From contig CALIBQ010000020.1 in the NCBI GenBank assembly GCA_938049385.1, positions 1 through 46,266 on the forward strand: a stretch of DNA of 46,266 nt, written 5' to 3'. This document shows positions 31,699-33,835 of the stretch, piece after piece. The notes beneath the pieces are model-generated. The model made no database searches and was not told where the DNA came from. It saw only the letters and a program-made list of their open reading frames with translations. The first letter of the stretch is position 1. Each line of letters opens with the position of its first letter. A program made the translations under genes and the position numbers. The DNA is from an uncultured Anaerolineae bacterium. GTDB taxonomy: Bacteria > Chloroflexota > Anaerolineae > JACIWP01.

Positions 31699-31745
31699 GG
31701 GTGTTATCTGCCGGCTGTCCCATAATACCAGGAGGAATGCAGGAC

Positions 31746-32408
31746 ATGCCGAATGATTCAGACGCCCGTCATCGGCGTTCCATCCGTCTGTCGGGATATG
31801 ATTATTCCCTGGCCGGCTGGTACTTCGTCACCATTGTGACACAGGGACGTGCCTGTTTATTCGGCAGCGTCGTGAGCGGCGAGATGATGCTCAATGACAT
31901 TGGTCATCTCATTGAACTCTATTGGAACAACATTCCAGCCCATTCCCCCAACGTGCGGTTGGACGCATTCGTCATCATGCCCAACCATATCCACGGCATC
32001 ATCATTATCACAAACCCCAATAACGTAGGGGCAGGCCTTGTGCCTGCCCAACCCAATTTGGCAGGCCTTGTGCCTGCCCGGGGCGATCCAGGGGCAACCA
32101 CAAGGGTTGCCCCAACAGGAGGTGTCCCAACAGGGGGTGCCTCAACAGGGAATGTCCCAAAGAGCGTTGCCCCTACGTTGGGGGATATTGTCGGGGCATT
32201 CAAATCGGTTACGACCGTGGAATATATTCGCGGTGTGCAACAGGGGCTGTGGATGTCGTTCCACAAACGGTTATGGCAGCGCAATTATTACGAACGCATC
32301 ATCCGCAGTGAACGAGGACTGACCGCCGTTCGGCAGTACATTCATGACAATCCAACCAACTGGGAATCGGATGCCGAACGTCCTGCCTCGCATCCAATGA
32401 CTACCTGA
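31746..32408 (+). CDS. REP-associated tyrosine transposase (RAYT, Y1/IS200-like)
   Basis: A 220-residue HUH endonuclease of the TnpA_REP type, which handles single-stranded REP hairpins. It has RRSIRLSGYDYSLAGWYFVTIVT at the start, VIMPNHIHGIIII with the HUH histidines, and the C-terminal LWQRNYYERIIRSE...YIHDNPTNW typical of RAYTs. Between the HUH motif and the C-terminal helix lies a Gly/Pro/Ala/Thr-rich insert of about 55 residues (roughly 95-150), coded by REP-like palindromes. AGGAGG precedes ATG 31746 by ten bases; ATG 31737 is nearer and less likely. The gene is followed after 32 bases by deoA/pdp, which may share its message. Confidence 0.9.
   Translation: MPNDSDARHRRSIRLSGYDYSLAGWYFVTIVTQGRACLFGSVVSGEMMLNDIGHLIELYWNNIPAHSPNVRLDAFVIMPNHIHGIIIITNPNNVGAGLVPAQPNLAGLVPARGDPGATTRVAPTGGVPTGGASTGNVPKSVAPTLGDIVGAFKSVTTVEYIRGVQQGLWMSFHKRLWQRNYYERIIRSERGLTAVRQYIHDNPTNWESDAERPASHPMTT
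32028..32113 (+). repeat. REP-like palindromes inside the RAYT coding sequence
   Basis: A 20-base sequence, GGCAGGCCTTGTGCCTGCCC, occurs exactly twice (32030-32049 and 32060-32079); each copy is a hairpin. A third hairpin pairs GGGGCAACC (32091-32099) with GGTTGCCCC (32105-32113) and has the same layout as units downstream at 33.8 kb. Similar broken units continue to about 32180. All keep the reading frame open. Confidence 0.85.
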
Positions 32409-32440: not shown

Positions 32441-33745
32441 ATGCGTGCCGTCGATATCATCGCCAAAAAACGAGATGGGCTGGAACTTTCCCCCGAGGAA
32501 ATCCACTGGTTCATCCAGAGTTATGTTAAGGATGAGATTCCTGACTATCAAACTGCCGCGCTCCTGATGGCCATCTACTTACGGGGCATGAACACCCAGG
32601 AGACGATTGCCCTGACCATGGCGATGGCGCACTCGGGCGAGACACTTTCATTCAAGGAAATCCTCCCCTTCACGGTAGACAAGCACTCCACGGGCGGCGT
32701 CGGGGATAAGACGACATTGGCACTGACGCCGGCCGTCTCAGCCCTCGGCCTGCCTGTCGCCAAGATGTCCGGCCGCGCCCTCGGCCATACCGGCGGCACC
32801 CTCGATAAGCTGGAATCCATCCCCGGTTTTCGCGCCGACCTGACGCCCGAGCAGTTCCGCCGGCAGGCCCGCGAGGTAGGCCTCGTGGTCGCCAGCCAGA
32901 CCGCCCAGCTCGCGCCGGCCGACGGCAAGCTCTATGCCCTGCGCGACGCCACCGCCACGGTGGGAAGCCTGCCCCTCATTGCCAGCTCCATCATGAGCAA
33001 AAAGCTCGCCGGCGGCGCGGATGCTATCCTCCTGGACGTGAAGGTCGGCCACGGTTCCTTTATGAAGACCCTGGATGAGGCAGTGGCGCTTGCGGAGCTG
33101 ATGGTGGATATCGGCAGAAGCCAAGGCCGGCGTATGGCCGCCGTGCTGACCGACATGCACCAGCCCTTGGGCAGAGCGGTGGGGAACGCGCTGGAACTGC
33201 GCGAGGCGTTGGAAACCCTGCACGGCGCCGGCCCGGAGGACTTCCGCACCCTGGTCATCACCCTGGCCGGCCATATGCTGACGCTGGCCGGCATCACTGC
33301 AACGGTAGATGAAGGCAAGGAGAAAACCGCCCAGGTCCTGTGGGACGGCTCTGCGCTGAACAAATTCCGCCAGTTCATTATCGCCCAGGGCGGCGATCCG
33401 GCCTATGTGGACGAGCCGGACCGTCTGCCGAAAGCGCAGTATATCGAGACTGTCCCTGCGCCGCGTGATGGCTATATCGCGGAGCTGAACGCTATGGAAG
33501 TGGGGCTGACTTCTGCAGTGCTGGGCGCCGGCCGCGCCAAGAAAGGAGACCCGGTAGACCACGCAGTGGGCATCGTCCTACACGCCAAAATCGGCGATAA
33601 GGTTCATGCCGGCGATCCCCTCTTCGCCATTCACGCATCGCGCCCGGAACATATTCCAATGGCACGCGAGCGTATGCTAGCGGCGTACAAGTGGTCCGAG
33701 GTTCCGGCGACGCCCCCGCCGTTGATTTATCGTTCCATCACGTAA
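32441..33745 (+). CDS. deoA: Pyrimidine-nucleoside / thymidine phosphorylase
   Basis: A 434-residue homologue of DeoA/Pdp that splits pyrimidine (deoxy)nucleosides with phosphate into free base and (deoxy)ribose-1-phosphate. The phosphate loop KHSTGGVGDKTT lies at 81-92, followed by KMSGRALGHTGGTLDKLESI and LYALRDATATV with the substrate Arg, and SKKLAGGADAILLDVKVGHGSFMK. The C-terminal beta domain (about 340-434) is complete. The sequence does not separate a strict thymidine phosphorylase from the broader Pdp. AAGGAGG precedes the ATG. It stands between the RAYT gene and the external REP cluster. Confidence 0.93.
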   Translation: MRAVDIIAKKRDGLELSPEEIHWFIQSYVKDEIPDYQTAALLMAIYLRGMNTQETIALTMAMAHSGETLSFKEILPFTVDKHSTGGVGDKTTLALTPAVSALGLPVAKMSGRALGHTGGTLDKLESIPGFRADLTPEQFRRQAREVGLVVASQTAQLAPADGKLYALRDATATVGSLPLIASSIMSKKLAGGADAILLDVKVGHGSFMKTLDEAVALAELMVDIGRSQGRRMAAVLTDMHQPLGRAVGNALELREALETLHGAGPEDFRTLVITLAGHMLTLAGITATVDEGKEKTAQVLWDGSALNKFRQFIIAQGGDPAYVDEPDRLPKAQYIETVPAPRDGYIAELNAMEVGLTSAVLGAGRAKKGDPVDHAVGIVLHAKIGDKVHAGDPLFAIHASRPEHIPMARERMLAAYKWSEVPATPPPLIYRSIT

Positions 33746-33754
33746 TGGGAAATA

Positions 33755-33835
33755 GGGGTATCCACAAATAAAACGGGGCATCCACAAGGGATGCCCCTAC
33801 CTGGAAAAACGGGGCAATCGCAGGGGTGCCCCTGC
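33755..33835. repeat. REP unit cluster between deoA and the family 4 glycosyltransferase
   Basis: Three units are visible: a half unit GGGGTATCCACAA at 33755, a full hairpin pairing GGGGCATCC (33775-33783) with GGATGCCCC (33789-33797), and GGGGCA...TGCCCC at 33811-33832. The full unit shares the layout GGGGCAnCCACAAGGGnTGCCCC with the hairpin inside the RAYT gene 1.7 kb away. The cluster fills the convergent intergenic gap and may also stop transcription. Confidence 0.88.

Follow-up and report, generated by a model that had tools for sequence, protein, structure and literature searches.

An in-frame inverted pair of GTAG-tagged REPs in the linker of a RAYT transposase gene

Inside the reading frame of the only RAYT (TnpA_REP) gene in the window, by which we mean the whole stretch of 46,266 nt analysed here, lies an inverted pair of GTAG-tagged REPs, and to judge from the sequences of this gene and its relatives, it very probably carries the putative substrate of its own enzyme. 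The arrangement as such is already published: Quentin et al. 2018 (PMC6006769) described tnpA_REP genes of subclass 2.4 that hold REPs in frame, generally between the HuH and Y motifs, noted that in-gene REP insertion is predominant in, and unique to, this subclass, and considered that the in-frame REPs may affect the protein little. The window gene adds one more case. What is new here is the prevalence of the arrangement, its inverted-pair architecture, the covariation at the DNA level and the match to each genome’s own repeats; in the limited collection of literature searched, no paper was found that tests covariation, cognate match or function of the embedded copy. That the insert is a REP pair, constrained at the level of DNA, we hold with high confidence, and for the fuller statement, which joins to this identity and constraint a seed or linkage role for the embedded copy, we put the chances at about even. 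The features on which the argument draws are as follows.

31730..31735, + strand: Shine-Dalgarno-like AGGAGG, by direct reading of the sequence
31746..32408, + strand: RAYT / TnpA_REP gene (HuH Y1 transposase), from its open reading frame, motifs and profile matches
about 32022..32179, + strand: insert lying in frame in the beta3-alphaC linker, an inverted REP pair of REPIN-like layout, with a 12-nt perfect inverted repeat at its ends
32025..32049, + strand: REP 1, GTAG plus the hairpin GGGCAGGC-CTTGT-GCCTGCCC (fold -10.6 kcal/mol, z -4.6)
32060..32079, + strand: the hairpin again in an exact copy, lacking the GTAG tag (z -3.3)
32091..32113, - strand: inverted REP hairpin GGGGCAACC-ACAAG-GGTTGCCCC = GGGGCAACCACAAGGGTTGCCCC (z -4.0)
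32100..32160, + strand: tandem array of a 15-nt unit (4.1 copies) that goes back to the 3′ arm of the inverted REP
32169..32176, - strand: GCCCCTAC, the inverted GTAG tag that ends the insert
33775..33797, - strand: external REP of the same family, GTAGGGGCATCC-CTTGT-GGATGCCC (33776-33800), found as a layout match (z -5.0)

By its sequence the gene is a RAYT, as the initial annotation had it. The reading frame runs from an ATG at 31746 to a TGA stop at 32408 and encodes 220 aa, in which the HUH motif (H81-I-H83), W177, Q178, R187, the catalytic Tyr Y198 and N202 all fall in invariant columns of an alignment of 41 sequences, with a W-Q-R-Y-N spacing equal to that of W94-Q95-R104-Y115-N119 in 4er8. 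A PDB search with the single window sequence gave no match, and it took a profile of the window RAYT’s relatives to reach the 4er8 TnpArep structure (E 3.1e-6). The NCBIfam model NF047646 (REP_Tyr_transpos) matches in two stretches with E 1.4e-15, its 57.4 bits lying below the curated cut-off of 80 because the insert splits the match, and Pfam Y1_Tnp, at 22.6 bits, stays just short of its cut-off of 23. The insert is located 3′ of MPNHIHGIIII, which holds the HUH motif, and 5′ of the C-terminal W-Q-R...Y...N block, and the frame indeed stays open through the hairpins.

The sequence had originally drawn attention through a 20-base palindrome said to occur twice exactly and a third hairpin said to resemble an external REP, and both statements were borne out: GGCAGGCCTTGTGCCTGCCC stands at 32030-32049 and again at 32060-32079, with a chance expectation of 0.03, and the hairpin at 32091-32113 has its external layout match, GGGGCATCCACAAGGGATGCCCC, at 33775-33797, for which 100 shuffles yielded 0 matches. 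These are not three loose hairpins, however. The insert is an inverted REP pair of REPIN/BIME layout, with its GTAG tags outward, because GTAG (32025-32028) directly precedes the first hairpin and because a 12-nt perfect inverted repeat, AACGTAGGGGCA at 32022-32033 and TGCCCCTACGTT at 32168-32179, bounds the insert. Read in reverse complement, the hairpin at 32091-32113 shows the same CTTGT loop as REP 1, and the tandem repeat separates this 3′ hairpin of the insert from its CTAC end. The foot of the embedded REP, in which GTAG stands directly before GGGC...GCCC and which has three consecutive G-C pairs, is of the type of subclass 2.4. As single-stranded DNA, the region 32015-32190 folds at -45.6 kcal/mol, compared with a shuffled mean of -33.8 (z -3.7), a value equalled by 0 of 200 shuffles.

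The genome from which the window comes (3.37 Mb in 85 contigs) holds a small population of REPs with GTAGGGGC, a paired stem and a CTTGT or CTCGT loop (on C14, C15, C20:33776, C24, C40 and C44), and since they have the tag, stem layout and loop of the embedded hairpin, that hairpin belongs to a family present elsewhere, which upholds the earlier suggestion that the insert is made of REPs. A 23-mer formulated for such a count occurs exactly at 4 places in the genome (C14, C20 twice, C44), and there are further relaxed forms; similar units are thus present beyond the gene. The external REP at 33775-33797, the one whose coding context was assessed, sits between convergent open reading frames ending at 33745 and 33839. 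The nearest external copy lies 1.4 kb from the window RAYT, and within 1 kb of the gene the embedded copy is the only GTAGGGGC. A second RAYT in the same genome (L002, on C79) has GTAG hairpins of its own, with another stem, at this linker position. At another locus, G000:C24:40283-40338 (L012/L016), an external REP pair directly adjoins a possible frame end, where the TAG of GTAG would be the stop codon (...GGCTGGTGAAG-TAG-GGGC).

In its features, the gene is like those of subclass 2.4, to which RAYT group 4 of Bertels et al. 2017 maps according to PMC6006769: REPs in frame between HuH and Tyr, a variable beta3-alphaC insertion, GTAG-tagged long or double-foot REPs, and a spread over many phyla. 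In these features we see no categorical difference from subclass 2.4. REPINs and BIMEs (PMC3116915) likewise consist of two GTAG-tagged hairpins in inverted orientation, but they lie between genes, and the window pair lies inside the reading frame of a transposase. Palindromic repeats in frame in coding genes are also familiar from the Rickettsia palindromic elements and from the intragenic GTAG/CGTC REPs of Di Nocera et al. 2013 (PMC3733652), who described GTAG REPs together with intragenic copies in other genes; those elements enter unrelated host genes, whereas here the host gene is that of the REP-processing enzyme. The E. coli TnpA_REP, or REPtron (4ER8; PMC8266576), aligns at the HUH, W, Q, R, Tyr and Asn residues and also has GTAG-tagged REPs, but it is without the long beta3-alphaC insert and its REPs flank the gene.

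Prevalence was estimated from 149 distinct genes whose linker could be read, drawn from 80 relatives in about 20 phyla and from further relatives in the same class. In these genes GTAGGGGC/GCCCCTAC has a density of 7.1 per kb of linker, while their N-halves have 0.08 per kb. The query for this sample included the insert and could have biased it; a second sample, drawn by similarity to the N-terminal 85 aa only, with the linker unused, gave the same result (tag in 29 of 43 linkers; 8.0 per kb of linker and 0 in the N-half). Two linker architectures stand out, the inverted pair GTAG...CTAC in 64 genes, so that the architecture of the window insert recurs in 63 others, and a double-foot single palindrome in 22. 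One linker, in a Leptospiraceae MAG (L067), has in place of the GTAGGGGC type an 18-bp perfect palindrome around CGTTGGGCACGCAGATCTGCGTGCCCAACG; the tag of this RAYT may have changed (GTTG). The window gene and L024, L025, L029 and L106, which are named as Binatia, Proteobacteria, FCPU426 and a relative from the window’s class, have embedded stems that resemble one another, with the AGGC type first and the AACC type last, although their proteins are only about 50% identical.

In a covariation test of the embedded stems, anchored on GTAGGGGC and the next GCCC only, the inner four stem positions were paired in 94.6% of cases, versus 36.9% (maximum 46.7%) over 2000 swaps of the 3′ arms between genes, a control that accounts for relatedness among the genes only partly; the inner arms are diverse, with 33 different ones among 69 genes. 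The longest perfect stem averages 9.2 bp, compared with 6.2 bp both in synonymous-codon shuffles and in the N-half. Moreover, GTAGGGGC is read in both of its stop-free frames (89 and 15), giving wholly different peptides (VGAG... and RRGE...), and was never seen among the surveyed linkers in the third frame, where TAG would be a stop. Between two species of the window’s genus (L104/L105), GTAGGGGCGCAGCGACGCTGCGTCCCTAC and GTAGGGGCACAGCGGCGCTGTGCCCCTAC differ by a paired G-C to A-T change. Close relatives within one genus (L188/L204) have entirely different stems, which look like a whole replacement. Counts of paired versus single changes in close gene pairs were discarded, since perfect stems alone had been selected and single changes were impossible by construction.

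Embedded hairpins also match the REPs of their own genomes. The embedded 12-mer, consisting of the tag and eight stem bases, is found again in the flanks of the same locus in 26 of 79 cases (33%), as against 0.8% (maximum 5.1%) with swapped arms. The clearest single example is the GCAA stem, with 51 matches in a genome whose RAYT carries it (G131) and 0-2 in ten others; the GACC and AGGT stems are abundant where RAYTs carry them, yet common to several genomes. Loop identity with the nearest relative by RAYT core sequence is 0.23, where the permutation maximum is 0.15, and loop class changes 9 times on the tree as compared with at least 12 in shuffles; hairpin length and loop track the core sequence more than by chance. 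From tag placement, stem pairing and flank recurrence it therefore follows that the constraint is on DNA structure and not on the peptide. In the family the hairpin is preserved or renewed at the DNA level, which may reflect selection on the embedded copy or else repeated replacement from genomic REPs. In one further genome (G039), the search met no REP of the GCAA-stem form besides the embedded hairpin at C20:9949-9977 (L176), so that the RAYT there is a substrate-carrying gene without an external population.

The reading that would best account for these results is that a RAYT of the subclass 2.4 / group 4 type carries its cognate GTAG-tagged REPs in frame as an inverted pair, placed in the loop that joins the HUH strand to helix alphaC, which would be exposed according to PMC6006769. 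TnpA_REP recognises and cleaves single-stranded REP, with GTAG as the recognition or guide element (PMC8266576); from this family biochemistry we infer that the gene bears its enzyme’s single-stranded substrate on both strands and would be physically linked to it. It had been suggested that the enzyme could cut or copy its own message strand, so that its activity might be coupled to self-interruption, and because TnpA_REP acts on single-stranded DNA (PMC8266576), this strand can only mean the coding DNA strand. As a master or seed that moves with the gene, the embedded copy may hold the enzyme and its substrate together when they are transferred horizontally, and it could found a new REP population. 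Such a seed or linkage function, useful on transfer, would be the likeliest consequence, a tentative proposal whose chances we set a little short of even. A stronger form, in which the reading frame serves as the REP master copy and selection keeps the cognate hairpin in the gene so that the enzyme travels with its substrate, seems to us doubtful; if it were true, a new repeat population would be seeded after horizontal transfer, and a coding sequence would be a cis-acting transposition substrate.

The main rival, to which we give a considerable chance, though short of even, is tolerated insertion: REPs would land preferentially near the RAYT gene, only those in the disordered HUH-alphaC loop would survive, without any function, and the hairpins would look perfect because they are renewed, by new insertions or by gene conversion from genomic REPs. 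Published opinion (PMC6006769, PMC3733652) comes near to this reading. It fits with the steep drop of REP density with distance, from 3.35 per kb in the first 150 bp upstream (2.68 downstream) down to some 0.1 per kb at a distance of 2-3 kb, with the absence of GTAGGGGC from the last 150 bp of the conserved N-half (0 of 149 RAYT genes), and with the entirely different stems of the closely related L188 and L204. Other tolerant sites also receive REPs in some RAYTs (L194/L200, L035, L124), for example 3′ of the WQRNYYEHIIR block or at the C-terminus. L194 and L200, the same RAYT, have a REP inserted in the HUH-alphaC linker and another, with a different stem (GAAC...GTTC), after WQRNYYEHIIRDERAR.

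Tolerance is favoured, too, by the RAYTs that do without the insert, about a quarter to a third of those sampled. Short hairpin-free linkers are found in all sampled RAYTs of two same-class genera and in several cyanobacterial ones, and the flanks of insert-free RAYTs carry GTAGGGGC at 0.76 per kb, a frequency like that of other RAYTs. Some relatives are palindrome-free, but these have short linkers without the insert; no relative combining the same linker with palindrome-free DNA was found. At least 15 gains or losses of the insert are required, which leaves a single ancient insertion unsupported, although the resolution of the tree is poor (130 columns, with 82 of its 146 inner branches open). 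A RAYT gene can therefore exist without the insert, and because of this dispensability and the patchy gain and loss, tolerated insertion gains in weight. Against it, the linker carries GTAGGGGC in 107 of 149 genes (72%), about twice as often as the immediate 150-bp flanks, which should be at least equally tolerant (52/142 upstream, 37%; 40/145 downstream, 28%). Moreover, 41 of 108 genes, among them the window gene, have no GTAGGGGC within 1 kb besides the embedded one. It is for these 2 reasons that we favour linkage over pure tolerance.

Autoregulation, in which the hairpins in DNA or mRNA would serve as a binding site for the enzyme or impede transcription or translation, and so limit the level of RAYT, could be argued from the strength of hairpins in a transcribed region and their recurrent position within the gene; it is improbable, given that hairpin position, number and sequence are highly variable, that many relatives have no hairpins and that TnpA_REP is known as an enzyme of single-stranded DNA (PMC8266576). 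Selection of a Gly/Pro/Thr-rich linker for flexibility or binding, with the palindromes as a codon by-product, would suit the open frame and the VGA...AP(T/L) common to many linkers, but it is rejected by the loss of stems in synonymous shuffles, the unrelated peptides from two frames and the covariation of the stems.

What keeps a domesticated transposase matched to its scattered substrate repeats over long periods is an open question in the REP/RAYT field, and a gene with its own substrate in the reading frame would be a simple physical link between the two. The RAYT family offers a natural experiment in this respect, with genes that have an embedded hairpin, that lack one or that have recently changed it. 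The linkers show one further peculiarity. Single arms of the embedded hairpins are often tandemly amplified in frame, in units of roughly 15-27 nt, as in the window (32100-32160) and in L026, L031, L035, L073, L076, L090, L130, L185 and L325, the last with more than ten copies of VGAKN, and it looks as if the hairpins provoke slipped replication within the linker.
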